From Myxococcales bacterium (lineage in GTDB: Bacteria; Myxococcota_A; Polyangia; Palsa-1104; SHYY01): DNA of 34,804 nt. The stretch is taken from assembly GCA_009692555.1 (NCBI GenBank), contig SHYY01000048.1, forward strand, positions 1 through 34,804. Reading direction: 5' to 3'. Shown here piece after piece: positions 3-32,227 of the stretch (the stretch's first letter is position 1; every line of letters starts with the position of its first letter). The notes beneath the pieces are model-generated. The model had not been told where the DNA came from. It saw only the letters and a list, made by a program, of their open reading frames with translations, and made no database searches. A program made the translations under genes and the position numbers.

Positions 3-824
3 GGCGCCCGCTTCTACAGCATCGCCCGGGGCTCCGCGATGGAGTGCAAGGCGATCGTGGATGCCTTTGCGGTCCTGCAACTCGCCTTGGAAGACACTCG
101 GCGACAGGCCATGGAGTTGCTGACCCGCATCGTGGAGATGCTCACGCGCATGTGCCGGCGAGGTGATCCCCCGCGCGCGAGTGCCCCTGAATCGACTACG
201 ACTACGACTACGACTACGACTACGACTACGGGAGCGGAGGGACCCCCTTCTCCGTTAAGCACCCCGCGGCCGATCCATGCCGGCTGGCTTCGTTCCTCCT
301 CCGTCAAATACGGAGAGGATTCTCCGTCGTCGGCAAGAGGCGACGTGCAGCAAGCTCTGAAAGCAACGTCGCGCCTCGCAATCCGGGCGCCTCGGCCGCG
401 ATCACCAGGGTCCGCCGATGCATGTCAGCACGGGGCTAACGCCTCGGAGACGGCGGTCGCGATGGCGCGAGCCCGAGATCCTCCGCCGCCAGCCGCGCGG
501 CGATCTTGCCCGACAGCGCCACCATCGGGATCCCGGCTCCCGGGTGGGCGCTTCCTCCGACGAGGTAGAGGCCTCGCCAGCCCTTCACCCGGTTCTCCGG
601 CCGCTCGAACGCCGCCATCTTCGAGTTGGACGACGCGCCGTAGATCGACCCCCGGCTGGCCGGGAAGAGCGCCTCGAGATCGACCGGCGTCACGGCCTGC
701 TCCGCCGTTGGTGACAGCGCGAGGTGGTAGCGCTCCAGGGTGGCGAGGAGGCGGCTCCGGCAGTGCGGTCCGAGGGCGCTCCAATCGGTGCGCGAGGCTT
801 CGTCCAGCGGGGGCGCGTTGCTGA
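3..824 (+). CDS. Four-helix bundle protein (S23/IVP family), 5' end outside window
   Basis: The frame is already open at base 3 and reads GARFYSIARGSAMECKAIVD, then a Leu/Arg-rich helix ending ELLTRIVEMLTRMCRR. This is the C-terminal part of the four-helix-bundle proteins related to the insert in some 23S rRNA genes; their role is unknown. The family is about 115-130 residues long, so the conserved part ends near base 165. Beyond it the frame runs through a hexanucleotide repeat read as poly-Thr and stays open to 824, about 390 bases antisense into the carotenoid desaturase gene, which is unlikely to be native. A stop in another frame (TAA at 256-258) lies where a similar sequence at the right edge has TGA, so a frameshift near the repeat is possible. 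The family call is fairly sure; the 3' end is not. Confidence 0.6.
   Translation, partial: GARFYSIARGSAMECKAIVDAFAVLQLALEDTRRQAMELLTRIVEMLTRMCRRGDPPRASAPESTTTTTTTTTTTTGAEGPPSPLSTPRPIHAGWLRSSSVKYGEDSPSSARGDVQQALKATSRLAIRAPRPRSPGSADACQHGANASETAVAMARARDPPPPAARRSCPTAPPSGSRLPGGRFLRRGRGLASPSPGSPAARTPPSSSWTTRRRSTPGWPGRAPRDRPASRPAPPLVTARGGSAPGWRGGGSGSAVRGRSNRCARLRPAGARC
194..230 (+). repeat. (GACTAC)6 hexanucleotide array
   Basis: Six perfect GACTAC units plus one G. In the frame of the four-helix-bundle gene it encodes alternating Thr codons (ACG/ACT). Changes in copy number would not change the frame. The same unit occurs in inverted orientation at 34722-34745. Confidence 0.9.
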
Positions 825-1986
825 GGAGGAGGTGGCGCTCGATCCCGTCCGGGGGCGGCGAGAGCCCGGGCGCGCGGTCCTGCGCGCACAGGTAGACCGT
901 CGGGTCCTCGGGCGGGCGGCGGAGACGTCGATCGAACAGCTCGTCGAACTCGCGCCGGTAATCGCTGGAGAAGAAGACGTTGTGGTGCGCCAAAGGGAAG
1001 TCCCCGACCGCGGCGGTCGCGAGGAGCACAAAGGCCGACAGCGACGGCTCGAGGCGTGACACCTTCTCGGCCGCGCGCGCCGCCGCCGGATCGCCGGGGA
1101 GCAGGCGGCCGTAGAGCTGTGCCGCGTCGCAGTTGGCCACCACCGCGTCGGCATCGTGCGGCTCGCCGTCGACGGTGAGGCCGCGCACCTGCCCGCCCCA
1201 GGCCCGGACCCTCTCCACGCTCGCGCCGGTGTGGATCGCCACGCCGAGGGAGCGCGCCACTCCCGCCAGGGCCTCGGCGAGCCGGTACAGCCCGCCCTGT
1301 ACGACCTGGATCCCGAACTGCTGCTCGACGTGGATGATCACCGCCAGCGTGGCCGGGCAGAGGAAGGGCGAGGAGCCGTTGTAGGTGGCGTAGCGGCCGT
1401 AGAGCACGCGCAGCCGCTCGTCGGGAAAGAGCTCCTCGAGCGCCTTCCACAGCGTGCGTCCGGAGTCGATGTGGATGAACTGGGGCAGGGCGAAGAGCAG
1501 CGCCGGACTGAGGAGGTCGCGCATCCTCGGGACCGGCGACTCCATGAAGCGCTGGTGCACCACGTCGAAGATCCGGGCCGCCTGCTTCTGCAGCGCATCG
1601 AAGCCGCGTGCGTTCTTCTCGCCGGCGAACAGGCGGATCGCCTCCCGCGAGCGCTGCGGATCGTTCGAGAGATCGAGGCGCGATCCGTCGGGGAAGAAGT
1701 GGCGGCAGGCGGGGTCGACCGGGAGGAGCGTGACGTGATCCGAGAGCCTGGTACCGGCGGCGGCGAACAGCTCCTCGAACACGTAGCGCATGGTGAGGAC
1801 GCTCGGCCCGGCGGAGAGAAGGCGCCCGCCGACCTCCACCTCACGGAGCTTCCCACCGACGGTGGCGGAGCGCTCGAACACGGTGACGCGCGCCCCCGCG
1901 GCCTGGAGCCGGATCGCCGCCGCGAGCCCGCCGACGCCGGCGCCCACCACCGCCACCGCGGGCCCACGCGGGTTAGCGGGAGCCAT
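436..1986 (-). CDS. CrtD/CrtI-family carotenoid desaturase (FAD)
   Basis: A 516-residue flavoprotein of the phytoene desaturase superfamily. The N-terminal dinucleotide fold GAGVGG is at residues 15-20, followed by VFERSATVGGKL. The family's C-terminal FAD signature (YLVGGSAHPGAGIPMVALSGK region) is near residues 473-495. The stretch AGPSVLTMRYVFEELF and the later YGRYATYNGSSPF resemble CrtD, the 1-hydroxycarotenoid 3,4-desaturase, more than CrtI proper; this is a judgement from remembered family sequences. Length matches the family. It is divergent from the prenyl synthase gene with 165 bp between them, so the two are probably co-regulated. No phytoene synthase lies in the window, so the substrate could be a carotenoid made by genes elsewhere or another polyprenoid. 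Confidence 0.85.
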   Translation of the reverse strand: MAPANPRGPAVAVVGAGVGGLAAAIRLQAAGARVTVFERSATVGGKLREVEVGGRLLSAGPSVLTMRYVFEELFAAAGTRLSDHVTLLPVDPACRHFFPDGSRLDLSNDPQRSREAIRLFAGEKNARGFDALQKQAARIFDVVHQRFMESPVPRMRDLLSPALLFALPQFIHIDSGRTLWKALEELFPDERLRVLYGRYATYNGSSPFLCPATLAVIIHVEQQFGIQVVQGGLYRLAEALAGVARSLGVAIHTGASVERVRAWGGQVRGLTVDGEPHDADAVVANCDAAQLYGRLLPGDPAAARAAEKVSRLEPSLSAFVLLATAAVGDFPLAHHNVFFSSDYRREFDELFDRRLRRPPEDPTVYLCAQDRAPGLSPPPDGIERHLLLSNAPPLDEASRTDWSALGPHCRSRLLATLERYHLALSPTAEQAVTPVDLEALFPASRGSIYGASSNSKMAAFERPENRVKGWRGLYLVGGSAHPGAGIPMVALSGKIAARLAAEDLGLAPSRPPSPRR

Positions 1987-2151: not shown

Positions 2152-3084
2152 ATGACTCGCCCATCGGCCCAACTGGAACCGGACGGCTCCCTGGACAGCT
2201 CCCTGTTCGGGCGGCAGGCTCGGACGCTCGCGCTGATCGAGGAGTGGCTCGATCGCACGCTGCCTCACCCCGGATCGCCGCCCTCCCGCCTCCACCTGGC
2301 GATGCGCGAGGCGGTCTTCCCCGGCGGGAAGCGGGCGCGTCCGGCGCTGGTGTGCATGGTGGCGGAACTCCACGGCGCGGGTGGCGCGGAGCTGGCGGGG
2401 CGGATGGCGGCGGCGGTTGAGCTGGTCCACTGCGCGTCGCTGGTGCACGACGATCTCCCGGCCTTCGACAACGCGGAGGAGCGCCGCGGCAAGCCGAGCT
2501 GCCACGCGATGTTCGGCGAGGCGACCGGAATCCTGGTCGGCGACGCGCTGCTCACGCTGGCCTTCGAGGTGCTCGCGTCGTCGCCGCTGGTCGAGGCGGA
2601 GCGGGCCATGCGGCTGACGCGGCTCCTGGCCGATGCCACCGGGTCGCGCTCCGGGATCATCGGTGGGCAGGGTCTCGAGCTGCAGACCAACGTCGACCTC
2701 GATGCCTACCACATGCAGAAGACGTCGGCGCTCTTTCGCGCCGCGGCGGGCGGCGGGGCGCTGGCGGCCGGCGCCGACGCTGACCTCGCGCGCTGGCTGC
2801 GCTTCGGCGAGCTGATCGGCCGGGCGCTCCAGCTTGCAGACGATCTGGACGATTGTCTCTCCTCGGCCGAGGTTTGCGGCAAGCCGGTGGGCCAGGACGC
2901 GCTGTTCGACCGGCCGAACGCCGCCCTGCGCTTCGGCGTCGACGAGGTGCGGCGGACCCTCGGTCAGACGGTGACGGAGGCGGTGGGGCTGCTCGGGACG
3001 CCCTCTTTGGCCACCGAACCGCTGCGGGCGCTGGTCCACCTGATCAGCGCCCGGCACCTCGCGGCAGCGACGGCAGGACACTAG
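2152..3084 (+). CDS. Polyprenyl diphosphate synthase, probably GGPP synthase (CrtE/IspA type)
   Basis: A 310-residue all-helical trans-prenyltransferase that would condense IPP with allylic diphosphates. The first Asp-rich motif is HDDLPAFD (D100, D101, D106), with the two-residue insertion of type II enzymes, followed by RRGKPS. The second Asp-rich motif is DDLDD (D230-D234), and GGKRARPA is upstream. The fifth residue before the first Asp is Ala (ASLVHDD), as in CrtE-type GGPP synthases, whereas E. coli FPP synthase has a bulky Tyr there; GGPP is therefore the favoured product, by inference. It is the first gene of a plus-strand trio with the START-like protein (15-bp gap) and the flavoprotein (2-bp gap). 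ATG start at 2152; no strong ribosome binding site is seen. Confidence 0.88.
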   Translation: MTRPSAQLEPDGSLDSSLFGRQARTLALIEEWLDRTLPHPGSPPSRLHLAMREAVFPGGKRARPALVCMVAELHGAGGAELAGRMAAAVELVHCASLVHDDLPAFDNAEERRGKPSCHAMFGEATGILVGDALLTLAFEVLASSPLVEAERAMRLTRLLADATGSRSGIIGGQGLELQTNVDLDAYHMQKTSALFRAAAGGGALAAGADADLARWLRFGELIGRALQLADDLDDCLSSAEVCGKPVGQDALFDRPNAALRFGVDEVRRTLGQTVTEAVGLLGTPSLATEPLRALVHLISARHLAAATAGH

Positions 3085-3099: not shown

Positions 3100-3627
3100 G
3101 TGACGCCGCTCCTCAGCCCTCGCCTCGTGGGCGCGATCGCGGCGCATCCGCTCGTCGAGGTGGAGCTTGATTCCCAGGGGCATCCGCTGGCGGCGACGGC
3201 GATCGCTCGGATCGAGCGGACGCCGGCGCACGTGTGGAGCGTGGTGTCGGACCTCGAGCGGCACGCGCGCTTCATTCCGATGATCCATCGCACCCGCCGC
3301 GAGGGCCAGCGGGTGCATGTCGACCTGCGGTTCAAGATCGCCCTCTTCACGGCGAAGTTCTCCGCCGAGGGGCTGATCACCTCGGAGGAGGGGCGCTGGA
3401 TCGATGTCGCCTACGTCGCCGGGGAGCCGCGCGACCTCGCGATCCGCTTCGAAGTCGAAGGGGTCGACGAGGGGCGCGCCACGGTGCTCGCGACGCGCGT
3501 GGGGTTCGACCCGTTCTCCCTGGGCTGGATGGTGAGCTTCTTCCTCAAACACCACCCCGAGATCCGCTTCGGCGTGGTGAGCGGATCGGCGCTCACGCTC
3601 CTCGACGCGATCCGCCGCGCGATGTGA
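3100..3627 (+). CDS. SRPBCC/START-like ligand-binding protein
   Basis: A 175-residue protein with a GTG start at 3100. The pattern IARIERTPAHVWSVVSDLERHARFIPMI, then alternating strands with VHVDLRF and FSAEG, and a long C-terminal helix (VSGSALTLLDAIRRAM), is typical of the polyketide-cyclase/CoQ-binding START superfamily, which has a deep hydrophobic pocket. No catalytic motif can be assigned. Its place between the prenyl synthase and the halogenase-like flavoprotein suggests it binds or presents a hydrophobic isoprenoid intermediate; that is inference. It could equally be a cyclase or a lipid carrier. Confidence 0.7.
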   Translation: MTPLLSPRLVGAIAAHPLVEVELDSQGHPLAATAIARIERTPAHVWSVVSDLERHARFIPMIHRTRREGQRVHVDLRFKIALFTAKFSAEGLITSEEGRWIDVAYVAGEPRDLAIRFEVEGVDEGRATVLATRVGFDPFSLGWMVSFFLKHHPEIRFGVVSGSALTLLDAIRRAM

Positions 3628-3629
3628 CG

Positions 3630-5168
3630 ATGACGGCGCCCGCCGCCCCGGTGGTCCTTGGGTCCTCGCTCTCGGGGCTGCTGGTCAGCCTGTCGCTCTC
3701 GCGCGCCGGGATCGAGCATGTGCTGATCGGCGGCGGCGAGCCGGCGGCGATTCCGCGGCTCGGCGAGGCGCTCACCGACGGCGCCAGCCCGGAGCTGTGG
3801 CGGCTGTTCGGCCGTGAGTTCCCGGAGTGCTTCTTCCACAAGAGCCACATCAGCATCCTCGACGGCCACTTCGCCACGCTGATCCATCTCGCCGATCCGC
3901 TGCGCGGAAAAAAGCGCGTGGCGAAGTTCGCCCCGGCCCAGGGAAAGCCGCGCTACCCATGGTTCGGCGAGGCGCTGTTCCACCTCGACCGGATCGCGTT
4001 CGACCGCGCGGTGTATCGCAAGGCCCTGGCAGAACCCTGCTGCCGCTTCGTGACCACGCGGGTGAGCCATCTCGAGTTCGACGCCGCCTCCGATGCCGTG
4101 ATCCGGATCGACTTCAGCGACGGGCCGCCGATCGAGCGGCCGCGCTACGTGTTCGACGCCACCGGGGGCATGAGCCTGGTGGCCCGGGCGGCGCGGCTCG
4201 CCGAGACCCCGCTCGGTCCGGCGCAGCGCGTGGTGTTCACCCACTTTCGCCGCGCCGACGCTGAGCCCCGCCCACCCGAGTGGTGGCGCCACGGCACCAA
4301 CCTGCTCCGCCTCGACCGCGACTTCGACGGCCTGGACGCCATGGCCTGGCTGATCCCGATCGGCCGCACCCTCTCGGTGGGCATGAGCCTCGATGCCGAA
4401 GGGGAGCACGGCGCGGACGACCGTGGCGATCTGATGGCGCGGCTGGATGAGGCCTTCCGCCGTCGCGGCCTCGACTACCGCCCCCTCTACCCCGACCAGC
4501 AGCCGATCCAGGACCTTCGCCACCGCTACTCGGTGCGCCAGCGCGCCTCGGGCCGAAACTGGCTGCTCGTCGGTGGCAGCTTCATCACGATCTGGTTCCC
4601 GAGCAGCACCGGCCTGTGGACCGCCACCGCCGCCGCCGCGCTGGCGCCTCGCCTGCTCGACCGGCCCGACCTCGGCGTCTGGTACGAAAAGACGATGCGC
4701 GGGCTGATCCCGCTGCACCACGTGTGGGATGGTCTGGTCCGCGGCCCGAGCTTCCGGAGCAGCCTGCAGGTCTATCGATTCCTCGCCCGTGGGATGCACT
4801 TCATTCCGCGCCGCATCGCCTCCTATCTCCGCATCCTCGACGACGCCCACGGCTGGTTCCGACCGCTCGGCTGGCTGCTCACACTGGTCGCCCTGGTCGG
4901 GTCGGTGGTGCCGCCGGTGATGCTCTTCCTGGGTGGCTTCGCGGTGGTCCGCACCCGGCTCGCGCCCGACCGGATGCGGCAAGCTGCAGCCTTCCCGCTC
5001 TATTTCCACTCCATTGTGTTCCGGGTGTGGAGCCTCCTGCGCGCCGTGCCGCACCTTCTGTGGGCGGCGATTCCGCGCCGCGGCCCGCTGGCCGGGAAGC
5101 CCGGGCTCCTCCGCCCGCCGATCAGCGAGACAGGCCCAGCCCGATCAGCTGCGCCTCCAGCGTCTTGA
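3630..5168 (+). CDS. Halogenase-like FAD-dependent oxidoreductase with C-terminal membrane segment
   Basis: A 512-residue protein starting at the ATG at 3630, two bases after the preceding stop. The N-terminus VVLGSSLSGLLVSLSLSRAG has the spacing of a flavin-binding fold but GSSLSG in place of GAGPAG. Later segments (PRLGEALTDG, FDATGGMSLVAR, NWLLVGGSF) match the tryptophan-halogenase/geranylgeranyl-reductase superfamily. The halogenase WxWxIP motif is reduced to AWLIPI, so halogenation is doubtful. A hydrophobic helix (about residues 413-437) and a basic tail suggest membrane attachment, which suits a lipid substrate. It overlaps the convergent thioredoxin-fold gene by 47 bp. The reaction is unknown: oxidation, epoxidation or reduction of a prenyl product are all possible. 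Confidence 0.65.
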   Translation: MTAPAAPVVLGSSLSGLLVSLSLSRAGIEHVLIGGGEPAAIPRLGEALTDGASPELWRLFGREFPECFFHKSHISILDGHFATLIHLADPLRGKKRVAKFAPAQGKPRYPWFGEALFHLDRIAFDRAVYRKALAEPCCRFVTTRVSHLEFDAASDAVIRIDFSDGPPIERPRYVFDATGGMSLVARAARLAETPLGPAQRVVFTHFRRADAEPRPPEWWRHGTNLLRLDRDFDGLDAMAWLIPIGRTLSVGMSLDAEGEHGADDRGDLMARLDEAFRRRGLDYRPLYPDQQPIQDLRHRYSVRQRASGRNWLLVGGSFITIWFPSSTGLWTATAAAALAPRLLDRPDLGVWYEKTMRGLIPLHHVWDGLVRGPSFRSSLQVYRFLARGMHFIPRRIASYLRILDDAHGWFRPLGWLLTLVALVGSVVPPVMLFLGGFAVVRTRLAPDRMRQAAAFPLYFHSIVFRVWSLLRAVPHLLWAAIPRRGPLAGKPGLLRPPISETGPARSAAPPAS

Positions 5169-5664
5169 GCTGGGCTTCGGACAGCGGCCCCTCGGAGACG
5201 AAGCGCACGCTGCCTTCGCCGTCGAGGAGCAGGATCACGCTCTTGCCCTTGGTCAGCCCCCAGACCTTGCGGGCCTCGCCCTTCCAGTCGATCCACACGG
5301 TGACCTTCTCGCGCTCGCAGGTGGCGCGTATGTTGTCGAGGACGTACTTCTTGGCGGGCCACCAGTTGTAGTCGCCCACGTCGGCGACCGGGACGAACTC
5401 GAACTTCCCGTGATTGGCGGGGTGGTCGGTGAAGGCCCCGAAGAGCTTGTTGGCGTGCTTGTTCTGCTCGCCGGCGTTCTTGTCCTCGTACTGGATCAGC
5501 AGCGGCAGCGTGCCGTCGGGAAACTGGCGGGGGTGCCACTCGGGATCGGAGAACGTCACCGGGGAGAGCTTGCTGCCCACGGTCGGGCCCGGTGCGGCGG
5601 GCGGCGTGGCGGCCGCGGTGGCAGCGACGGCGACGAGCATCGATCCGAGCGTGATCCGTCTCAT
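5122..5664 (-). CDS. Secreted thioredoxin-fold protein, YtfJ-like
   Basis: A 180-residue protein with an N-terminal signal peptide (MRRITLGSMLVAVAATAAATPP). The end, VILLLDGEGSVRFVSEGPLS followed by a helix, matches the YtfJ/TlpA-like thioredoxin fold, in which a late strand pair carries the Gly-Ser/Glu-Gly turn. No CxxC motif is present, so it is unlikely to be a classical disulfide reductase. It is convergent with the flavoprotein gene (47-bp overlap) and divergent from the radical SAM pair. The function of YtfJ proteins is not established; an exported redox or stress role is the usual guess. Confidence 0.6.
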   Translation of the reverse strand: MRRITLGSMLVAVAATAAATPPAAPGPTVGSKLSPVTFSDPEWHPRQFPDGTLPLLIQYEDKNAGEQNKHANKLFGAFTDHPANHGKFEFVPVADVGDYNWWPAKKYVLDNIRATCEREKVTVWIDWKGEARKVWGLTKGKSVILLLDGEGSVRFVSEGPLSEAQLKTLEAQLIGLGLSR

Positions 5665-5769
5665 GGCGCCAGCCAGTGTAGAAGCGGAGCCGGCGGCGGG
5701 TCAAGGTTCACTCAAGGTTCACGACCTTCCCTCGACACGCGCCCCCCCTCCGTGGTGTAGTGCCACGGA

Positions 5770-7347
5770 ATGCGCGTGTTGCTGATCAACTCGAATCGCG
5801 AGCAATCTCCGTGGCCGGCGGCGCCGATCGGCCTCGCCATGGTGGCGCGCGCGACCGCTGCGGCGCATCACGAGGTGTCGTTCCTCGACCTCGCCTTCGT
5901 GCGCAATCCGGCGCGCGAGACCCGGGTGCGGGCCGCCGAGTTTGCACCCGACGTCATCGGCATCTCGATCCGCAACCTCGACAACTGCAACTTCGACGCG
6001 CCGCGCTTCTACCTCGACGAGGTCCGCGATGAGGTGGTGCGCGTGGCCCGGCTGGCCTGCCCGCGCGCCCGGATCGTGATCGGCGGCGCGGCGGTGAACC
6101 TCGCGCCGTGGGATATCCTCCTGCACGTCGAGGCGGACTTCGCGCTGGCGGGCGAGGGCGAGGAGGCGCTGCCGGCCTTCCTTTCGGCGCTCACCGACGG
6201 TGCGGATCTCCAGGCTGTCCCGGGCGTGCTCGATCGCCACGGCCCGAAGCCCACCCCCGATCACGCGCGCGCCTTCGGCGGAGATCGCGTGTTCCTCGGC
6301 GAGCCGCCCGCCGGGCGATCGATCGTCACCGACTTCGAGACCGGCGGACGGAGCGATCTGTGGCGCTGGGTCGACTGGGCCACCTACGTCGGCCACGGGG
6401 CGCCCTATCCGATCCAGACCAAGCGCGGCTGCGCCCTGCGCTGCGTCTACTGCGCCTACAACAACATCGAGGGGCGCACCTATCGCTGCCGCGAGCCCCG
6501 CCTGATCGTCGACGAGATCGAGGAGGCGGTGCGCGAGGTCGGCGTGCGCTCGATCGACTTCGTCGACTCCACGTTCAATATCCCACCGGTCCACGCCATC
6601 GCTCTTTGCGAGGAGCTGGCGCGTCGCAAGCTGCCCTCCGACGTCGAGCTGTCGACGATGGGTGTCAATCCGGCCGCGATGTCGACCGAGCTCCTCGAAG
6701 CGATGAAGCGCGCCGGCTTCTCCAACGTGATGTGCACGCCGGAGAGCGCGTCCAACGTCACCCTCAAGTCGCTGCGCAAGGGATTCGACCGCGACCAGGT
6801 GATCTTCGCCGCCGAGCAGCTCCGCAAGGCCGGCCTGAAGACGCTGTGGTTCTTCCTGTTCGGCGCGCCCGGCGAGACCGTGGCGACGGTCAAGGAGACG
6901 CTCGAGTTCTGCGAGCGGTACATCGTGCCCACCGACGTGGCGCTGTTCACCGCCGGGATCCGGGTCTACCCGGGCACGCCGCTCGAGAAGCAGTGCAAGG
7001 AGCAGGGCTGGTTCGACGCCGCCGACAACCTCCTCCGGCCCTCCTGGTACGTGGCCCCGACGATCAGCGTGGCCGACATGTATCGCCTCCTGATCGAGGG
7101 CGCGATCGATCACCCCAACTGGATGACCGCCGCCGAGGGGATCCTCAATCCCGGGATGGTGTCCTTCGTCGACAAGGGCTATCGATTGCTGGGCGGCAAG
7201 GGGCCGCTGTGGGCGCGCATGCCCGATCTCTTCCGCTTCATGTCCCGGCTGGGCGTCCGCAAGAAGATCCTGATGCGGATGAACGACCTCCTCGTGTCGC
7301 GGACGCCGTCGCAGCTGCCGCATTCGCGGAAGCTCGAGGCCGGATGA
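5770..7347 (+). CDS. B12-binding-domain radical SAM enzyme
   Basis: A 525-residue protein. Residues 1-150 form a Rossmann-like B12-binding domain (MRVLLINSN, DVIGISIRNLDNCN, VIGGAAVNLAP). The radical SAM core holds the CxxxCxxC cluster at C221, C225 and C228 (KRGCALRCVYCAY). Downstream features include STMGVNPA, TPESASNVTLKSLRKGF and FFLFGAPGET, typical of class B radical SAM proteins. Such enzymes mostly methylate or rearrange unactivated carbons. The specific family is not recognised. It overlaps the next radical SAM gene by ATGA, so they are translated together and may act on the same substrate, plausibly a lipid given the neighbours. Promoter presumably lies in the 105-bp gap divergent from the YtfJ-like gene. 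Confidence 0.85.
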   Translation: MRVLLINSNREQSPWPAAPIGLAMVARATAAAHHEVSFLDLAFVRNPARETRVRAAEFAPDVIGISIRNLDNCNFDAPRFYLDEVRDEVVRVARLACPRARIVIGGAAVNLAPWDILLHVEADFALAGEGEEALPAFLSALTDGADLQAVPGVLDRHGPKPTPDHARAFGGDRVFLGEPPAGRSIVTDFETGGRSDLWRWVDWATYVGHGAPYPIQTKRGCALRCVYCAYNNIEGRTYRCREPRLIVDEIEEAVREVGVRSIDFVDSTFNIPPVHAIALCEELARRKLPSDVELSTMGVNPAAMSTELLEAMKRAGFSNVMCTPESASNVTLKSLRKGFDRDQVIFAAEQLRKAGLKTLWFFLFGAPGETVATVKETLEFCERYIVPTDVALFTAGIRVYPGTPLEKQCKEQGWFDAADNLLRPSWYVAPTISVADMYRLLIEGAIDHPNWMTAAEGILNPGMVSFVDKGYRLLGGKGPLWARMPDLFRFMSRLGVRKKILMRMNDLLVSRTPSQLPHSRKLEAG

Positions 7348-8987
7348 TGACGGACAAGCGGCGGATTTTGCTCATCTATCCGAAGTTCACCCGGAGCCAT
7401 TTGCTCAACTACGAGTTCATGGCGCCGTTCTATCCAGGCAAGCGCGGAGTGATGCCGCCGACCGGCCTGCTGGTGATCGCCGGGCTGTTCGAGGGCGACG
7501 GCTGGGAGGTGCGGATCGCGGACGAGAACGTGGAGCCGTTCAAGCCGGCGGACCTCGCGTGGGCCGAGGTGGTGGGCCTCTCGGGGATGCACCAGCAGCG
7601 CGTCCGCTTGATCGAGCTGATCGATCTGTGCAACCGGAGCGGGAAGATCACCGTCGTCGGTGGATCGTCGGTGAACATCTGCCCGGAGTACTACCCGCAG
7701 GCCGACGTCCTGCACGTTGGGGAGCTCGGCGACGGGACGAAGGAGCTGCTGGCGTTCCTGCGTACGGCCACCGCCAAGCCGCCCGCCCAGGTGGTATTCC
7801 AGACCAAGGAGAAGGCCACCCTCGACGAGCAGCCGCTGCCGGCGCTTCATCTCATCGACGTGAACGGGTATCTGCTGGTGCCGGTGCAGTTCTCGGTGGG
7901 CTGCCCGTTCACCTGCGAGTTCTGCGATATCCCGATGATCTACGGACGCGTGGCGCGCCTCAAATCGCCGGCGCGGGTGATGAAGGAGCTGGACGCCCTG
8001 TACGACCGCGGCTTCATCGGCGCGGTGATGTTCGTCGACGACAATCTGATCGCCAACCGCAAGGCGCTGCGCGAGTTCCTGCCCGAGCTGATCGCCTGGC
8101 AGAAGGCGCGCGGCTTTCCGTTCCAGTTCACCTCCGAGGCGTCGGTGAACCTGGCGCGCGACAAGGAGATCCTCGAGCTCCTGCGCCTGGCGCGGTTCAC
8201 GACGATGTTCGTCGGCGTCGAGTCGCCCGACCCGACCACGCTGATCCAGATCTCCAAGAAGCAGAACGTGATGGACCCGATCCTCGATTCGCTGCGCGCC
8301 ATCGAGGAGCATGGCATCGAGGTGCTGATCGGGATCATCTTCGGCTTCGACAGCGATACGCCGGAGACGGGGCGGATGGTGGCGCGGTTCATCGATCAGG
8401 CCAATGCGCCGATCATCCATTTCAACATGCTGGCGGCGCTGCCGAAGACGCCGCTGTGGGAGCGCATGGTGCGGGAGGGGCGCCTGGTGGCCGACGACGA
8501 CCACCTGCAGATGGACAACCTGCTCGGCTGCCTGAACAGCAATGTGAAGATGAAGCTCCCCAATGCGGTGATCAAGCAGATGTTGATCGAGACGATGCGG
8601 GACGCCTACTCGCCGGAGAAGGTGTGGGCGCGCTATACGTGGAACCTGGAGCACGTCTACGGACGGCAGGTGGCGGGGCGGCCACCGTCGAAGACCTGGA
8701 CGCACTTGAAGATCCTGTTCCCGTTCGCGGTGAAGGCGATGCGGAACGTGCTCCGCGTGGGGGTGCGGGAGGACTACCGCCGCCTCTTCTGGCGCTTCGT
8801 GTGGCAGGCGGTGCGGCTGCGGGTGCGCGGCAAGATCCCGAGCCTGCTCGATGTGCTGTTCAAGGTCGTACCGACAGCGCATCACCTGATCCGGTGGAGC
8901 GAGCGCTATCTCGCCCAGTTCGCCGAGGTGCCGGTGCGAGCAGTCGAGGCACCGAGCGAGCCGCACCAGATGGCCGTCGGATCGTAG
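7344..8987 (+). CDS. HpnP-like B12-binding radical SAM enzyme (DUF4070 type)
   Basis: A 547-residue protein starting at the ATG of the ATGA overlap. The N-terminal B12-binding domain carries FYPGKRGVMPPTGLLVIAGLF and RIADENVEP. The radical SAM core has SVGCPFTCEFCDIPMIYGR (C187, C191, C194). The run VMFVDDNLIANRKALREFLP, then TSEASVNLA, FVGVESPD and GFDSD, closely follows the hopanoid C-2 methylase HpnP and its relatives. The C-terminal 140 residues are basic and amphipathic, as in DUF4070 proteins. HpnP methylates ring A of hopanoids with cobalamin and SAM. No squalene-hopene cyclase is in the window, whereas an oxidosqualene cyclase lies 15 kb away; the substrate could be a hopanoid, sterol or carotenoid. 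Orthology to HpnP needs a tree. Confidence 0.85.
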   Translation: MMTDKRRILLIYPKFTRSHLLNYEFMAPFYPGKRGVMPPTGLLVIAGLFEGDGWEVRIADENVEPFKPADLAWAEVVGLSGMHQQRVRLIELIDLCNRSGKITVVGGSSVNICPEYYPQADVLHVGELGDGTKELLAFLRTATAKPPAQVVFQTKEKATLDEQPLPALHLIDVNGYLLVPVQFSVGCPFTCEFCDIPMIYGRVARLKSPARVMKELDALYDRGFIGAVMFVDDNLIANRKALREFLPELIAWQKARGFPFQFTSEASVNLARDKEILELLRLARFTTMFVGVESPDPTTLIQISKKQNVMDPILDSLRAIEEHGIEVLIGIIFGFDSDTPETGRMVARFIDQANAPIIHFNMLAALPKTPLWERMVREGRLVADDDHLQMDNLLGCLNSNVKMKLPNAVIKQMLIETMRDAYSPEKVWARYTWNLEHVYGRQVAGRPPSKTWTHLKILFPFAVKAMRNVLRVGVREDYRRLFWRFVWQAVRLRVRGKIPSLLDVLFKVVPTAHHLIRWSERYLAQFAEVPVRAVEAPSEPHQMAVGS

Positions 8988-9008: not shown

Positions 9009-10349
9009 TCACTCCAGGGCACCCGCAGCGACGAGCCGGGCGCGCACTCCTTCAGCGATTGCGACGGCGCGCGCGCGTCCGAGGAGCGGCTCGACGTACA
9101 CCACGTTGAACGAGAGCCGGCCACGGAAGGTGCACACCGCCATCGCGAGGGGCGCCACCAGCGCGAGGCCGATCGCGAAGTGGAGCCGGTCGAGCGAGAG
9201 CGCGCCGTAGCGCTCCGGCAGGCCGAGGCGGCCGATGTTGGTGATCCCGAGGCCCGCCGGGATGGCCTGATCGATCCGCCGCACCAGGCCCGGCAGAGGG
9301 TCACTCCCCGACGGGACGAACAGACCGAGCAGCGGGAAGGTGACGTAGGGCTCGCCGCGCGCGAGGGCCGCATCGAGGCGCGCCTTGGCCTCGCGGGCGA
9401 GATCCCACAGGGCTCGCTGCGGGTCGACGCGGAGGAAGGTGGTGGCTTGCGAGACATAGAGGCCCACTTCTTCACCGACGGAGGGGGTCAACTGATCGCG
9501 CAGGTTGACGCCGGAGAAGCAGCCGAGGTGGACGGACTCCTCGCCCGCGGTCGATCCTGCCGTTCGGTCGGCACCGCCTTGGAGATCGTCGCCCGCCGCG
9601 AGCAGCAACGCCGCCTGGAGCGCCCCCTGCACCGTGGTGCTCTCCTTCCGTGCGCGTGCTGCCAGCGACGCCGTCTCCCCCTCGGTGAGCGCGTGGTGGA
9701 GAACCCGGCTCTTGCGGGCCGCGGGTGCCACCTGTTCGTCGACCGCCAGGCGCCGCGGGCGCGCGGCCAGCGTGCGGCCCGCCTGCTGCCAGACGAAGGA
9801 GCCCAGCGCGCCCAGGCGCCCCACGCCGCGCCCGGCGGCGGGGAAGAGGTCGTTCATCGCCGGTCGCAGCGGAAAGGAGGGCTCCTCCCCGGGGGCGAGC
9901 CCGGCGGCGCACTCCAGGAGTTCGCGCACCTGCGAGACGGCGGAGAGCGCATCGGAGATCATGTGGTGGTGGGCCAGCACGAGGTCGTGCGCCCCGTCGC
10001 CTTCGAGGAGGGCGGCGCGCATCAGCGGGGCGCCGTGCGGGTCGAAAGGGAGGTTCAGCTCCTCCTCGGCCACCTCCTCCCAGTGCTGGTCGCTCCTGCG
10101 TCGCAGCACGCGCAACGCCACCGGCGTGGCGGCCGTCGCTCCGGGATCCACGAAGCGCGGCGCCCGCAGATCGCCGCCCACATGAGCCCGCAGGAGCGGA
10201 TGCCGTCGCTGCAGCCGCGCCAGCCCGGCCCGCACCCCCGCCGTGTCGAGCGGGCCCTCGATGCGCGCCACGATCACCCCGTTGAGCGGCGCCGCGCGAT
10301 CCATCAGCCACACCGCCCGCTCCGCCGCACTCAGCCCGCGTTCGCTCAT
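9009..10349 (-). CDS. Condensation-domain O-acyltransferase (PapA/WS-DGAT-like)
   Basis: A 446-residue protein starting at the ATG at 10349 (MSERGLSAAERAVWLMD), chosen because homologues begin at this helix; a longer open frame upstream is probably chance. The catalytic HHxxxD motif is HHMISD, with H128, H129 and D133. The C-terminal half has the second lobe of the chloramphenicol-acetyltransferase fold, including ITNIGRLGLPERYG and FRGRLSFNVVY. Relatives esterify alcohols with acyl-CoA or acyl carriers: wax esters, PapA-type lipids, and alcohol acetylation. With carotenoid, P450 and radical SAM genes around it, esterification of a hydroxylated terpenoid or sterol is plausible but unproven. 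It is convergent with the HpnP-like gene, 21 bp apart. Confidence 0.75.
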   Translation of the reverse strand: MSERGLSAAERAVWLMDRAAPLNGVIVARIEGPLDTAGVRAGLARLQRRHPLLRAHVGGDLRAPRFVDPGATAATPVALRVLRRRSDQHWEEVAEEELNLPFDPHGAPLMRAALLEGDGAHDLVLAHHHMISDALSAVSQVRELLECAAGLAPGEEPSFPLRPAMNDLFPAAGRGVGRLGALGSFVWQQAGRTLAARPRRLAVDEQVAPAARKSRVLHHALTEGETASLAARARKESTTVQGALQAALLLAAGDDLQGGADRTAGSTAGEESVHLGCFSGVNLRDQLTPSVGEEVGLYVSQATTFLRVDPQRALWDLAREAKARLDAALARGEPYVTFPLLGLFVPSGSDPLPGLVRRIDQAIPAGLGITNIGRLGLPERYGALSLDRLHFAIGLALVAPLAMAVCTFRGRLSFNVVYVEPLLGRARAVAIAEGVRARLVAAGALE

Positions 10350-10472
10350 CCGATTCCGGCGGTCACAGTATCTGAAAACCGAACACCATCCCAGGGTTCG
10401 CGCGGGTCGGATCGGAGAGCGCGAGCCTGGCAAGCGGTCAGCGTGGGCGCCGAGGTGGTGTACACTTCGGCC

Positions 10473-10793
10473 ATGGGAGATGACCTGACCGTCGAGATCC
10501 TCAAGCAGATCGGAGACGGAATCACGTCCGTGGGGGACGAGGTGCGTACGATGGGTACGAACCTCGGCGAGCGCATCGACCGGACCCACGATCGGCTCGA
10601 CAAGCTCGAAACGCGCTTTGGCCGCGTGGAGCAAGGTCTCGTGGATCTCGGAGGCTTCATGCGCCAGATCGCCGGCGACCAGCAGCGGCACGAAGGCTTC
10701 CACTCGCACCACGTCGACCTGCTGGAGAAGGACGTCGCGGACCTGAAGCAACGAATGCGGCGCGCCGAGGACGCGCTGTCGCGGCGGGAGTAG
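10473..10793 (+). CDS. Small coiled-coil protein, function unknown
   Basis: A 106-residue protein from the ATG at 10473. It is dominated by heptad-like charged helices (ILKQIGDGITSVGDEVRTMG, RIDRTHDRLDKLETRFGRVE, then LLEKDVADLKQRMRRAEDAL). No signal peptide or known domain is recognised. The open frame extends far upstream as an antisense shadow of the acyltransferase; only this last part has independent coding character. It stops 17 bp before the P450 gene and may be co-transcribed with it. Confidence 0.6.
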   Translation: MGDDLTVEILKQIGDGITSVGDEVRTMGTNLGERIDRTHDRLDKLETRFGRVEQGLVDLGGFMRQIAGDQQRHEGFHSHHVDLLEKDVADLKQRMRRAEDALSRRE

Positions 10794-10810: not shown

Positions 10811-12112
10811 ATGCTCCCTCCGGGTCCTGGCAAGCTCTTCTCGATCTCCGCCGCGCGGCGGCTGCTGCGCGATCCGCCGGGGCTGATCACCGATTTCACC
10901 GCGCGCTACGGGCCGGTGTGGCGCACCCATCTCCCCGACCGCGGGCGCCTGAAGGATCTGGTCTGGTTGATGGGGCCGGAGGGCAACGAGCGCATTCTTG
11001 CTGCAACGCACAAAGACGACTTCTCCTGGCACGAGGGCTACCGCTTCACGATGGAGCCGATTTTTGGCGCCACCACACTCATCCTCCTCGACGGCGCGGC
11101 GCACCGGACGCGGCAGCGGGCGCTCCAGCCGGCCTTCCACGCCCGGATGGACGGCGACCACGGCGCGGCGATGCGCGAGATCGCGGAGGGCCGGTTTGCG
11201 GGCTGGCGGCGCGGCGAGACGATCGATCTCGCCGGGGAGCTGAAGCGGATCTCGTTCCATGTGGTGGCGCGCCAGTTCCTCGGCGCGGCCGACGCGGAGA
11301 TCCCGCCGTTGACCCGCCTGTTCGAGGAGATCGGGCTGGGGCTGTTCTCGGTGTTCAAGGTGCCGCTTCCGGGCACCCGCTTCCATCGGGGGGTGAAGGC
11401 GCGCCGCGCGCTCGCCGGGCTCCTTGCCGAGCGGATCCGGGACTATCGACGGAGCGGCGCGATCCCGGCGAACATGCTGGGCAGCCTGATGCGCAGCGAG
11501 GACGATGCCGGCGAGCCGCTGCCCGACGAGACCCTGGTGTCCGAGATGCTCGCCCTGGTGTTCGCCGGCTACGACACCACGTCGAGCCTGCTCACCTCGT
11601 TGTGGGTCGAGCTTGGCCGGCGACCCGAGATCCACGCCGCGCTGCAGGGCGAGGCGCGCGCCCTCGGGGAGGCCACTCCGCAAGCGTCGTCCGAGCAGCC
11701 CCTGCTCGATGCCGCGCTCCAGGAGGCCGAGCGGCTCCATCCGCCGCTGGTGTTCTGCCTCCGCGGCGCGACGCGCGATCTGACCTTCCGGGGCTTCGAG
11801 ATCCCGGCCGGCAGCAAGGTCGCCTACAGCGCGCACTACACCGGGCGCATGCCCGAGCTGTTCGAGCGGCCGCTCGAGTTCCGGCCGGAGCGGTTTCTCG
11901 ACGGGTGGCGCCCGCCCGCCTACGCGATGGTGGGCTTCGGGGGTGGCCCTCGCGCGTGCATCGGCAAGCGCTTCGCGCAGATCGAGATGCGGCTGATCAC
12001 GACCCTGATCCTGCAGCGCTGGGACTTCGAGTTCCTGCCCGGGCAGTCGGACGAGATGTACTACAACCCGACGCCGCAGAGGCGGCACGGGTTCCAGGTG
12101 CGGATCCGGTAG
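10811..12112 (+). CDS. Cytochrome P450, CYP120/CYP26-like
   Basis: A 433-residue soluble P450. The I-helix motif is FAGYDTTSS, the ExxR motif is EAERLHPP, and the haem loop is FGGGPRACIG with the ligand at C383. The N-terminus PPGPGKLFSISAARRLL has no membrane anchor. The haem loop and the final PTPQRRHGFQVRIR resemble cyanobacterial CYP120 and retinoid-oxidising CYP26 enzymes rather than CYP51, whose I-helix and haem loop differ. Hydroxylation of a terpenoid, retinoid or carotenoid is a reasonable inference. A ferredoxin partner is not encoded nearby. It is convergent with the DUF349 gene, 27 bp apart. Confidence 0.88.
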   Translation: MLPPGPGKLFSISAARRLLRDPPGLITDFTARYGPVWRTHLPDRGRLKDLVWLMGPEGNERILAATHKDDFSWHEGYRFTMEPIFGATTLILLDGAAHRTRQRALQPAFHARMDGDHGAAMREIAEGRFAGWRRGETIDLAGELKRISFHVVARQFLGAADAEIPPLTRLFEEIGLGLFSVFKVPLPGTRFHRGVKARRALAGLLAERIRDYRRSGAIPANMLGSLMRSEDDAGEPLPDETLVSEMLALVFAGYDTTSSLLTSLWVELGRRPEIHAALQGEARALGEATPQASSEQPLLDAALQEAERLHPPLVFCLRGATRDLTFRGFEIPAGSKVAYSAHYTGRMPELFERPLEFRPERFLDGWRPPAYAMVGFGGGPRACIGKRFAQIEMRLITTLILQRWDFEFLPGQSDEMYYNPTPQRRHGFQVRIR

Positions 12113-19630: not shown

Positions 19631-20728
19631 ATGCGGATAGCCATTGTCGGTGCGGGACCGGGCGGGTCGACCGCGGCGCTGTCGCTGGCGCGGCAGAAGC
19701 GCCATGAGGTGGTGCTGATCGACCGCGACGTCTTTCCGCGCGTGAAGACCTGCGGCTCGGCGCTCTCCCCGCGCTGCATCACGCTCAGTCAGGAGCTCGG
19801 GCTCTCGTCGGTGATGGAGAAGCAGGCCTACTGGATCCGCGGGCTGCGCTTCACCGGACCGTCGGGGCGCGAGGCGACCCTCTCGGGCAAGGAGGGCGCG
19901 TGGATCATTCCGCGCGCGCGCTTCGACGCGGAGATCGCATTCACCGCCGAGCGCACCGGCGCGCGCTTCGAGCAGGGCTTCAAGGCGATCAAGGCGCTGA
20001 AGGACCCGTCGGGGCGCGTGCGCGGCATCTCCGACGGAAAACGCGAGATCGAGGCCGACCTGACGATCTTCGCCGACGGCGCCCACTCGCGCTTCTCCGA
20101 AGACAAGCGCCCGAAGCGGCAGATCGCCACGATCATGGGCTGGTGGGAGGGGATCCCGCACCTCGCGGGGCACATGGAGATGTGGTTCTCGAAGCGCGTC
20201 TCCCCCTGGTACGGGTGGCTGTTCCCCGAGAACGCGACGCGGGTCAACATCGGCATCTGCTACGACCCCGCCGACGCGGCCGATCCCAAGACCATCCTCC
20301 AGGAGATCATCGACCGCCACGTCGGACCCGAGCGCATGAAGGGCGCCGAGATGGTCGCCTGCGAGTGCAGCACGACCATCAAGTACCGCGGGGCGCCGAT
20401 CGTCTACACCGAGGAGGTCGGCCCCGTCGCCGCCCCGGGCGCGCTGTGGATCGGCGAGGCCGCGCGCCTCACCAACGCCGCCACCGGCGAGGGCATTTAC
20501 CACGCCATGAAGTCGGGCGCGATCGCCGCCGACGTGATCGCCCAGAACCTGAACGGCACGCTCGGCCAGGTCTACGAGCAGGCCATCCGCCGCCACTTCA
20601 CCTTCCGCCTCCGCATGGCCCTCGGCTTCCTGAAGTTCGCCGGCTCGCCCGCCTTCTCCGCGGTGACCTCGCTGCTCGCCTACCGCCCCGTCGAGAAGAC
20701 GCTCCAGTGGGCACTCGCCCACGTCTGA
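19631..20728 (+). CDS. Geranylgeranyl-reductase-family flavoprotein
   Basis: A 365-residue FAD enzyme. The dinucleotide motif is GAGPGG at residues 7-12. The family's PxxxxCG segment appears as FPRVKTCGSALSPRC. WYGWLFPENATRVNIGI corresponds to the YGWxFP motif, and WIGEAARLTNAATGEGIYHAMKSG to the second FAD motif with the TGEGI turn. These are hallmarks of geranylgeranyl reductases, which saturate isoprenoid double bonds in archaeal lipids, chlorophyll and quinones. It is not squalene epoxidase. Sitting 1.1 kb upstream of the sterol operon and downstream of an isoprenoid region, it might saturate a polyprenyl or sterol side-chain double bond; this is inference. No strong ribosome binding site is present. 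Confidence 0.82.
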   Translation: MRIAIVGAGPGGSTAALSLARQKRHEVVLIDRDVFPRVKTCGSALSPRCITLSQELGLSSVMEKQAYWIRGLRFTGPSGREATLSGKEGAWIIPRARFDAEIAFTAERTGARFEQGFKAIKALKDPSGRVRGISDGKREIEADLTIFADGAHSRFSEDKRPKRQIATIMGWWEGIPHLAGHMEMWFSKRVSPWYGWLFPENATRVNIGICYDPADAADPKTILQEIIDRHVGPERMKGAEMVACECSTTIKYRGAPIVYTEEVGPVAAPGALWIGEAARLTNAATGEGIYHAMKSGAIAADVIAQNLNGTLGQVYEQAIRRHFTFRLRMALGFLKFAGSPAFSAVTSLLAYRPVEKTLQWALAHV

Positions 20729-21836: not shown

Positions 21837-22955
21837 ATGATCCTCGTCACCGGCGGCGCCGGGCACCTCGGCGCCAATCTCGTTCGCAGGCTGATCGCCG
21901 ATGGCCACGGCGGAGACATTCGCGCCCTCTATCGGCCCGCGAGCGACAATCGCGCGCTCGACGGCCTCCCGATCGAGCTCGTGGCCGGCGATCTTCGCGA
22001 CCTCGAGTCCCTGCGCGCCGCGGTCCGCGGGTGCGACCTTGTCTACCACTGCGCGGCCAAGATCTCGACGTTGGCGGGCAGCGAGCGCGAGATCTTCGAC
22101 TGCAATGTAGTCGGCACGCGGCATCTGCTGCTCGCGGCGCGCGAGGCGGGTGCGAAGAAGGTGGTCGTCTCCGGCTCCTTCAGCGCCGTCGGCCATCACC
22201 TCAGCCGCCCCAGCGACGAGAGCGTGCCGTTCTACCCGTTCGCCCTGGCGATGCCCTACGAGTGGACCAAGGCGCTGGTGGAGATGGAGTGCTGGCGCGC
22301 CGCCGCCGCCGGGCTCGAGACCGTGGTCGCCACCTCGTGCGCGATCATGGGCCCGCACGACTACAAGCCGTCGCGGATGGGCGAGACCCTGATCGCGTAC
22401 GCCCACCGCAAGCTGCCCGCCTACATCCCGGGCGGCTTCGAGTTCGTCTCGGCGCGTGACATCGTCGAGGGGCACATCCTGGCGATGGAGAAGGGCCGGA
22501 GCGGCGAGAAGTACATCATCAGCACCCGCTACGTCACGCTCGACGAGCTGATGCAGATCTTCCAGGAGGTCACCGGGACGCCGAAGCCGCGCTTCCGCCT
22601 CCCGCCGCCGCTGATGGCCGGCATCGCCGCCGTCGCCAGCCCGATCATGAGCCGCTTCTTTCCGCGGCGCACCCAGCGCCTCACCCCCGGGGCGATCCGC
22701 CTCCTCCGGATGGGCCGCCGCGCCGATCACGGCAAGGCGGAGCGCGACCTCGGCTTCCGTCCGACCAGCATGGAGGAGGCGGTGACGCTGGCGTACGCCG
22801 ATTTCCTCCGCCGCGGCTTGATCGAGCGCCCGCGCAGGAGCGTCGCGTTCGTCGATCCCTATCCCGCGCCCAAGGGCAAGCCGGCGGTCGAGGCCGCTCC
22901 TTCAGCGGGTCAGGGTCCGGCCAAGGTCAACGGCGCGCCGGAGGTCCAGGCGTGA
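21837..22955 (+). CDS. sdmB: SdmB-like NAD(P)-dependent sterol dehydrogenase (3-beta-HSD family)
   Basis: A 372-residue extended short-chain dehydrogenase. The cofactor motif is GGAGHLGANL at residues 5-14, the active-site Ser lies in VVSGSFSAVG, and the catalytic pair is Y141 and K145 (YEWTK). It resembles 3-beta-hydroxysteroid dehydrogenase/C-4 decarboxylases. In Methylococcus capsulatus, SdmA (Rieske oxygenase) and SdmB (reductase of this family) together remove C-4 methyl groups from sterols. The same gene pair occurs here, with the Rieske gene overlapping by GTGA, so SdmB function is the favoured call. The C-terminal tail (residues 335-372) is Pro/Ala-rich and probably disordered. First gene of a five-gene operon; strong AAGGAGG upstream. 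Confidence 0.82.
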   Translation: MILVTGGAGHLGANLVRRLIADGHGGDIRALYRPASDNRALDGLPIELVAGDLRDLESLRAAVRGCDLVYHCAAKISTLAGSEREIFDCNVVGTRHLLLAAREAGAKKVVVSGSFSAVGHHLSRPSDESVPFYPFALAMPYEWTKALVEMECWRAAAAGLETVVATSCAIMGPHDYKPSRMGETLIAYAHRKLPAYIPGGFEFVSARDIVEGHILAMEKGRSGEKYIISTRYVTLDELMQIFQEVTGTPKPRFRLPPPLMAGIAAVASPIMSRFFPRRTQRLTPGAIRLLRMGRRADHGKAERDLGFRPTSMEEAVTLAYADFLRRGLIERPRRSVAFVDPYPAPKGKPAVEAAPSAGQGPAKVNGAPEVQA

Positions 22956-24070
22956 ACCAGGACACCGCGCGTCGTCCCCCCGACTTCCACCAGGCGCGCA
23001 ATCGCCGCCAGAAGGTGCGCGCGGCGGGGATGAACCCCGATTACTGGTATCCCGTTGAATACGACAAGAACGTCGCACCCGGGAAATCCGTGTCGGTGAC
23101 CTTCTGGAAGCGGGCGATCGCCCTCTACCGCGGGATGGACGGCCAGCTCCGCGCGGTCGAGGATCGCTGCGCCCACCGGCAGCTCAAGCTCTCCGCCGGC
23201 ACCGTCGAGGGATGCAACCTGGTGTGCCCCTACCACGGCTGGTGCTTCGACGGCGACGGCAAGCTCGCCCACGTCCCGCACGACCTGTTCGGGCACGAGA
23301 TGCCCAAGGTCCAGATCACCAGCTTTCCGGTCCGGGTGCGCTACGGCCTGATCTGGATCTTCCCCGGCGATTCCGCTTTAGCGGAGGAGCGCACGATCCC
23401 CGATCTCCCCGAGATCGAGGGGCCGGTGGCGAAGCGCTGGGGCCACGTCCTGACCGACTTCACCTGGCGCGCCCATCACTCGATGATCCTCGACAACGTG
23501 AGCGACTTCAGCCACGCCTACCTGCACCGCAAGTACCGCCCCTTCACCGACGCCAAGCTCACCAAGTGCGAGGCGGTGGGCGACAAGGTGTTCGTCAGCT
23601 ACGACACCAAGGTCGGCACCGGCCCGATCTCGGGCCTGTTCATCGATCGCCAGCGCGTCGACATGAACGCGATGGACCTCTGCTACGAATACCCCTACCA
23701 GTGGTCGAACACCGACGGGCAGATCAAGCACTGGTGCTTCGTCCTGCCGATCGACGAGCGCACCACGCGCAGCTTCTTCCTGTTCTATTTCAAGTCTTTC
23801 AAGGTGCCGTTCCTGCCGCTGCGCATCCCGCGGCGCGGCATGAGCGTGATCCTCGACTTCGCCAAGGTGCTGCACGTGAAGCCGCTGCTGGCCGAGGACG
23901 GGGTGGCGGTCGAGGCGGAGCAGGCGGGCTACGAGGCGCACTTCGACCAGCCGATCGCGGAGCTCAATCCGGCGGTGGCGCTGTTCCAGCAGCTGACGAT
24001 CCGGAAGTGGGAGGAGCACCTCCAGAAGTCTGACAAGAGCGGCCGGGCCGTCGCCCAGGTGCAGCCGTGA
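22952..24070 (+). CDS. sdmA: SdmA-like Rieske oxygenase (sterol C-4 demethylation)
   Basis: A 372-residue protein with a GTG start at 22952 overlapping the preceding stop by four bases. The N-terminal Rieske [2Fe-2S] domain has C73-x-H75 (CAHR) and C92-x2-H95 (CPYHGW). The catalytic domain has NVSDFSHAYLH, giving D185, H188 and H192 for the mononuclear iron. It would oxidise the C-4 methyl of a sterol stepwise, with the carbon lost by the SdmB-type partner. Related Rieske proteins include the DAF-36/Neverland cholesterol 7-desaturases, a less likely alternative given the SdmB partner. A separate reductase/ferredoxin is needed and is not in the operon. It also overlaps the cyclase start by GTGA. 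Confidence 0.85.
   Translation: MNQDTARRPPDFHQARNRRQKVRAAGMNPDYWYPVEYDKNVAPGKSVSVTFWKRAIALYRGMDGQLRAVEDRCAHRQLKLSAGTVEGCNLVCPYHGWCFDGDGKLAHVPHDLFGHEMPKVQITSFPVRVRYGLIWIFPGDSALAEERTIPDLPEIEGPVAKRWGHVLTDFTWRAHHSMILDNVSDFSHAYLHRKYRPFTDAKLTKCEAVGDKVFVSYDTKVGTGPISGLFIDRQRVDMNAMDLCYEYPYQWSNTDGQIKHWCFVLPIDERTTRSFFLFYFKSFKVPFLPLRIPRRGMSVILDFAKVLHVKPLLAEDGVAVEAEQAGYEAHFDQPIAELNPAVALFQQLTIRKWEEHLQKSDKSGRAVAQVQP

Positions 24071-28028: not shown

Positions 28029-32227
<4,199 letters not shown>

Follow-up and report, generated by a model that had tools for sequence, protein, structure and literature searches.

An HpnP-clade radical SAM protein in a myxobacterial genome with a sterol cyclase and no detected hopene cyclase

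The hopanoid C-2 methylase HpnP is expected to combine B12-binding, radical S-adenosylmethionine (SAM) and DUF4070 domains, and to reside in a host that makes hopanoids and hence has a squalene-hopene cyclase. What a relative of HpnP might methylate where no such cyclase is apparent is the question raised by a locus on contig SHYY01000048.1 of a Myxococcales bacterium (assembly GCA_009692555.1; positions 1 to 34,804, hereafter the window). An initial annotation of this DNA placed an HpnP-like radical SAM methylase candidate at 7344–8987 (the focal gene), with no hopene cyclase nearby, and proposed hopanoids, sterols or a carotenoid as substrates. The best reading of the analysis presented here is that the focal enzyme would be a B12-dependent radical SAM C-methylase of a non-hopanoid polycyclic isoprenoid, with a sterol as the first candidate. 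The source bin comprises 6.1 Mb in 283 contigs and is 80% complete, a limit that applies to each statement below on what was not found in this genome.

Both the coordinates and the HpnP-like radical SAM identity were borne out by translation, by Pfam and by the tree described below. The reading frame starts with an ATG at 7344 and closes with a stop codon at 8985–8987, and the Pfam scan of the encoded protein returned all three expected domains, namely B12-binding (E 4.6e-11), Radical_SAM (8.5e-16) and DUF4070 (4.4e-17). The CPFTCEFCD, FVDDN and TSEASVNLA segments on which the initial annotation leaned are indeed present. However, the alignment revealed FVDDN/TEASxNLA and CEFCD in HpnP-like proteins outside the HpnP clade also, and the three segments were rejected as proof of HpnP since they are shared more widely. 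In an NCBIfam scan the protein was claimed by no model, with top scores of 77 bits or less, far under the cut-offs; the scores against TIGR04367 (HpnR, the hopanoid C-3 methylase; cut-off 650) and TIGR04072 were 53 and 72 bits, respectively. The closest relative of the focal protein, at 70% identity, is encoded by Myxococcales bacterium palsa_1153 (L061). Comparison of the two orthologous genes gave a nonsynonymous divergence (dN) of 0.23 against a synonymous divergence (dS) of 0.93, and purifying selection of this kind indicates that the focal gene is not a chance open reading frame (ORF). The palsa_1153 copy has a broken reading frame, which is most likely an assembly artefact since the break sits at an NN gap.

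The relationship of the focal protein to HpnP was examined using homologues drawn from the phylum (377 genomes, of which 58 matched at E 1e-40 or better), from the family, from one Calditrichaeota genome and from plasmid records. The resultant tree (77 rows, IQ-TREE, LG+C20) draws upon 53 of the 58 matching genomes, with G030, G039, G064, G194 and G244 absent and second copies partly so, and contains a single HpnP reference row, from Methylobacterium bullatum (L086). This row was taken as HpnP because the 2.8 Mb record holds one homologue only, together with a squalene-hopene cyclase (460 bits), and because species of this genus carry hpnP and produce 2-methylhopanoids, as stated in a published study (PMC12583986). 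The focal protein forms a clade with its counterparts from palsa_1153, G377, G351 and M. bullatum, with support of 100/100 and a long stem (0.86), and sits apart from many HpnP-like DUF4070 clades. Within this clade the focal protein and its palsa_1153 orthologue, themselves on a long stem (0.82), constitute the deepest branch, sister to a group in which M. bullatum is joined to the G377/G351 pair. A constrained tree in which the four myxobacterial rows were held together was 32.7 log units worse (approximately unbiased, or AU, test, p 0.016), and an all-myxobacterial group that excludes the Methylobacterium row is accordingly disfavoured, the grouping having been named after the tree was seen.

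The focal protein is nevertheless a distant member of the clade, being 39–40% identical to members other than its palsa_1153 orthologue; its identity to the M. bullatum protein is 39.5%, and that of the G377/G351 branch is 48%. At 43 positions the three rows of the other branch share a residue that is rare in the outgroups, and 18 of these are kept in the focal protein and 19 in palsa_1153, compared to 7/44 in the best outgroup row and 1/35 in a middle one. The clade-specific letters include CDIP in place of CDII, and the SGMH and H-GE-GD-T segments. By placement and by residues, therefore, the focal protein is assigned to the HpnP clade, albeit as a divergent member. It has in common with HpnP (the family of UniProt B3QHD1) the three domains, the CEFCDIP cluster segment and the SGMH, H-GE-GD-T and ALPKTPLW segments, but differs at 25 of the 43 clade positions, in the lack of a detected squalene-hopene cyclase in its genome, and in the overlap of its gene with that of a second B12 radical SAM protein. 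The HpnP-like DUF4070 proteins of the many other clades share the three-domain architecture, FVDDN and TEASxNLA, but are 30–34% identical to the focal protein and have CEFCDII or another ending instead of CEFCDIP (11 rows aligned). A sequence that we take to be Rhodopseudomonas palustris HpnP, unverified and not used as evidence, shares 58% identity with the M. bullatum row and 42.5% with the focal protein. For Alphaproteobacteria, the same published study applies a similarity threshold of some 55% or above relative to R. palustris HpnP (PMC12583986); the values given here are identities as opposed to PSI-BLAST similarities, and the threshold was devised for a different class.

The absence of a nearby hopene cyclase was upheld. 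The cyclase encoded in the window, 15 kb downstream of the focal gene and beside SdmA, SdmB and ERG2 homologues, is of the oxidosqualene type, with lanosterol synthase structure 1w6k as its nearest solved relative (E 1.6e-120) and VSDCTAE in place of the LDDTA of the M. bullatum hopene cyclase. It is the one full cyclase in the bin, a single weak cyclase-like match being an Ig-domain protein. Neither the window nor the 80%-complete genome yielded a squalene-hopene cyclase, nothing in the window was recognised as a hopanoid gene, and the focal protein is the one DUF4070 protein of the bin. Two observations had been named at the outset as counting against the assignment, namely a grouping with non-lipid B12 radical SAM enzymes, and an HpnP orthologue plus shc elsewhere in the genome. 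Since the focal protein falls in the HpnP clade when placed against DUF4070 outgroups, and neither a second HpnP nor shc was found, neither applies.

Relatives agree with this picture. Among 317 genomes of the class, a member of the HpnP clade (E 1e-95 or better) was found in four, all belonging to one order of 14 genomes; G378 and G478, which share contig number and coordinates, seem to be a single genome. All four carriers have an oxidosqualene cyclase with VSDCTAE and none has a hopene cyclase, while the corresponding counts for the order are 12/14 for sterol cyclase and 0/14 for hopene cyclase. Given carrier completeness values of 80, 71, 88 and 91%, the probability that all four are missing a real hopene cyclase by chance is near 6e-4. 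At the level of gene content, these data speak strongly against home-made hopanoids as substrate, and an HpnP-clade enzyme serving hopanoids made by the host is unlikely.

A feature absent from the initial annotation is that the TGA of the preceding radical SAM gene overlaps the focal ATG by four bases (ATGA), from which it follows that the two genes are probably translated together. Comparison of the partner gene with its palsa_1153 copy gave dN 0.16 and dS 0.91, and in that genome the same two radical SAM genes are followed by homologues of the flavoprotein and the YtfJ-like protein that lie upstream of the pair in the window, the flavoprotein homologue being directly after the pair and 62% identical over the first 350 residues. 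The partner protein scored 285.6 bits against TIGR04072, under the cut-off of 360, and its best solved-structure match is TsrM (PDB 6wte, E 2.3e-30); resemblance to these B12 radical SAM enzymes is confined to the partner. Homologues of the partner, 50–60% identical, occur in seven other genomes. No terpene gene was found in their scanned surroundings (two of the seven neighbourhoods, by Pfam: CYTH, Yip1, serpin, NAD synthase and others), and the partner therefore does not point to terpenes and was dropped as a pathway clue.

Table 1. Features of the window that bear on the focal locus (aa, amino acids; FPP/GGPP, farnesyl/geranylgeranyl diphosphate; GGR, geranylgeranyl reductase).
Position	Strand	Feature	Evidence or remark
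436..1986	-	CrtD/CrtI-type carotenoid desaturase	Sequence searches
2152..3084	+	Short-chain polyprenyl diphosphate (FPP/GGPP) synthase	Sequence searches
3100..3627	+	Polyketide_cyc/CoxG-type lipid-binding fold protein	Pfam
3627..5168 (start approximate)	+	Flavoprotein, weakly similar to geranylgeranyl-reductase superfamily	
5122..5664	-	YtfJ-like protein	Pfam, tblastn; homologue near pair in palsa_1153
5665..5769	.	Divergent intergenic stretch before two-gene unit, presumed promoter region (predicted)	Gene calls
5770..7347	+	Second B12-binding/radical SAM protein (partner), 525 aa	Pfam, TIGR04072, PDB search; pair kept in palsa_1153
7344..8987	+	HpnP-clade B12-binding/radical SAM/DUF4070 protein (focal gene), 547 aa	Translation, Pfam, tree, clade residues, dN/dS
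9009..10751	-	PapA-type acyltransferase (condensation-domain superfamily)	Converges on focal gene
10811..12112	+	Cytochrome P450	Closest solved relative CYP120 (2ve3); CYP51 types lower in ranking
19631..20728	+	GGR-family reductase with YxWxFP motif (YGWLFP at residue 194), candidate sterol C-24 reductase Bsr	Sequence
21837..22955	+	SdmB-like (bacterial sterol C-4 demethylation)	329 bits, under model cut-off of 600
22952..24070	+	SdmA-like Rieske oxygenase (bacterial sterol C-4 demethylation)	393 bits, under model cut-off of 600
24067..26130	+	2,3-Oxidosqualene cyclase, not hopene cyclase	TIGR03463, 903 bits (cut-off 851)
26161..26718	+	ERG2/sigma-1-receptor-like sterol isomerase	Pfam, E 3.1e-51

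The remaining features of the window are collected in Table 1. An antisense ORF at 3411–5054 (minus strand), called as a gene at first, was abandoned in favour of the flavoprotein on the plus strand. The GGR-family reductase lies 10.6 kb downstream of the focal gene, and a motif of the YxWxFP type has been noted in Bsr, a bacterial sterol C-24 reductase (PMC12004948). DUF349, ABC-F and APH genes lie between the focal locus and the sterol operon, an AbiEii-type nucleotidyltransferase gene (20822–21694) is situated just ahead of the operon, and a 1540-aa protein encoded at 28029–32651 combines a Ser/Thr kinase, an nSTAND1 NTPase and a C-terminal FGE-sulfatase domain. No neighbourhood is conserved across the HpnP-clade members from the window, palsa_1153, G377 and G351: the G377 gene is accompanied by those for a GNAT protein, a SAM methyltransferase and a cytochrome b/c set, and the G351 gene is followed by a P450 gene on the same strand.

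Alongside the domains, cluster motif, clade placement, selection, gene overlap and genome content observed at this locus, a chemistry, a methylated position and a substrate may be proposed by analogy. Class B radical SAM enzymes generate a 5'-deoxyadenosyl radical, abstract a hydrogen atom from the substrate and supply a methyl group from methylcobalamin. By comparison with HpnP, cobalamin would sit in the N-terminal domain of the focal enzyme and a [4Fe-4S] cluster at CPFTCEFC; a polycyclic isoprenoid would then lose hydrogen from an unactivated ring carbon to the 5'-deoxyadenosyl radical, that carbon would receive the methyl of methylcobalamin, and the partner enzyme may add a second modification. 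The substrate would be something other than a hopanoid of the cell's own making, the foremost candidate being a sterol or an intermediate modified at ring A C-2, the position at which HpnP acts. A sterol is the leading candidate because gene content identifies it as the polycyclic isoprenoid that the organism can make. It is therefore proposed, tentatively and with somewhat less than even confidence, that the focal enzyme is a methylcobalamin-dependent radical SAM C-methyltransferase whose likeliest substrate is a sterol, or sterol intermediate, from the oxidosqualene cyclase of the same genome, at C-2 of ring A. The fuller proposition of a bacterial C-2 methylase for sterol ring A, one that arose from HpnP or was its ancestor, such that sterol-making Myxococcota would make 2-methylsterols, is doubtful.

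Several observations weigh against a sterol substrate. The nearest genes are of isoprenoid or carotenoid type, and the conserved neighbours (the second radical SAM protein, the flavoprotein and the YtfJ-like protein) have no known sterol role. The initial annotation was correct in that the focal gene is close to terpenoid genes and shares a contig with a sterol operon, but this setting does not serve as pathway evidence: the operon starts 13 kb downstream, behind unrelated housekeeping genes, and in palsa_1153, G377 and G351 the clade gene and the sterol cyclase gene are on separate contigs, and linkage was therefore rejected as an argument for a single pathway. Co-occurrence discriminates little either, with a sterol cyclase in 4/4 carriers versus 8/10 non-carriers of the order; since most genomes without the enzyme have the cyclase too (12/14 for the order overall), co-occurrence does not single out sterols and was rejected as proof. 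Retention of only 18 of the 43 HpnP-specific residues suggests that the substrate pocket may differ from that of HpnP, and the predicted structure of the focal protein (four alignment rows) had a mean predicted local distance difference test (pLDDT) score of 61, too poor for viewing the pocket. A search for squalene epoxidase (PF08491) found none in this genome but did find it in all five relatives searched (G331, G377, G351, G076 and G378), a gap in the sterol pathway that the incomplete bin may explain. Finally, the papers listed by the literature searches offered no myxobacterial sterol methylated on ring A.

The nearby genes suggest another possibility, in which the focal enzyme and its partner would methylate a carotenoid, prenyl chain or terpene that the local genes produce or modify. 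The FPP/GGPP synthase, CrtD, PapA-type acyltransferase, CYP120-like P450 and GGR-like flavoprotein all lie within about 7 kb either side; the pair, flavoprotein and YtfJ-like genes remain together in palsa_1153, and a P450 gene follows the G351 clade member on the same strand. These neighbours, however, are on mixed strands and form no single operon, and apart from the distant P450 in G351 they are not common to G377 or G351; the scanned surroundings of the partner homologues are devoid of terpene genes, and HpnP enzymes of known substrate act on polycyclic triterpenoids. With neighbouring genes as the basis of the carotenoid variant, a local isoprenoid of this kind ranks behind a sterol and is considered unlikely. 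More unlikely is that the focal enzyme has left lipid methylation, for instance to modify a peptide or small molecule with its TsrM-related partner. The best solved-structure match of the overlapping partner is a tryptophan methylase, 25 of the 43 HpnP-specific residues are lost and the stem shared with palsa_1153 is long; against this, the focal protein groups with HpnP and its neighbours are isoprenoid genes.

Two further explanations would retain hopanoids. A working HpnP could act upon hopanoids taken up from prey or soil, as the clade membership of the focal protein would allow, and myxobacteria do eat bacteria; uptake is also allowed for deltaproteobacterial HpnP homologues by the authors of a 2023 study (PMC10697835). 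The focal branch, however, is more divergent from the Methylobacterium protein (about 40% identity) than is the G377/G351 branch, and the window has no recognised hopanoid gene, such that this explanation appears improbable. That a hopene cyclase exists and simply lies in the missing 20% of a fragmented bin is more improbable still, given that four separately binned carriers, and all 14 genomes of the order, lack one and that the other cyclase-like match in the genome is an Ig-domain protein. A sterol thus stays the preferred, if tentative, substrate.

The protein type and its lack of a hopanoid partner are already known. By its description, the 2023 study placed myxobacterial homologues without squalene cyclase as the deepest in the HpnP clade, in likeness to the focal protein, and its authors suggested that these are not hopanoid-biosynthesis enzymes (PMC10697835). 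The claim in the initial annotation that methylation of a sterol ring or carotenoid by this enzyme class would be new is limited to that extent. The term 'oxidosqualene' gives no match in the main text of that paper, and among the papers listed by searches for HpnP with sterol or myxobacteria, no title or abstract opening makes an HpnP–sterol link. What is added here is the combination of an HpnP-clade enzyme with a sterol cyclase, and the overlapping radical SAM pair. Also in favour of a sterol, HpnP is described as acting at ring A, C-2, of hopanoids and also of tetrahymanol, a non-hopane pentacycle (PMC12583986); the fossil record contains 2-methyl steranes, and the possibility that ring-A sterol methylation originated with a radical SAM enzyme has been raised (PMC6997595).

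Separate observations were made on HpnP-like proteins and cyclases elsewhere in the survey. A 17-row HpnP-like clade outside HpnP (including L060, L071, L074, L047 and L053) is associated with a squalene-hopene cyclase in 11/17 genomes versus 17/360 others (Fisher p 4e-10, not corrected for shared ancestry) and with a sterol cyclase in 0/17; the member in G016 adjoins SUF genes, not hopanoid genes. The cyclase classes behind these counts were assigned by hand from bit scores, with weak partial matches (e.g. G073 and G323) and the second matches of G234, G263, G322, G325, G328, G343 and G364 set aside. Three genomes of the order have a second, distant cyclase-like match (80–101 bits to TIGR03463) in addition to the sterol cyclase, at G263:C6, G472:C773 and G322:C45, and two HpnP-like genes, a few kb or less apart, are present on each of G179:C151 (L084) and G279:C860 (L165).

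The presence of HpnP-clade enzymes in organisms with sterol genes and no detected hopene cyclase indicates that the clade and hopanoids need not go together. The finding bears on the role of the ancestral enzyme, and on which organisms make sterols methylated in ring A, from which 2-methyl steranes would be expected to derive. Fossil 2-methylhopanes are interpreted, via HpnP, as traces of ancient bacteria. Were the focal enzyme to prove a sterol methylase, sterol modification would be either the original role of HpnP or one that it later took on, and sterol-making Myxococcota would be a biological source of the 2-methyl steranes found in rocks.

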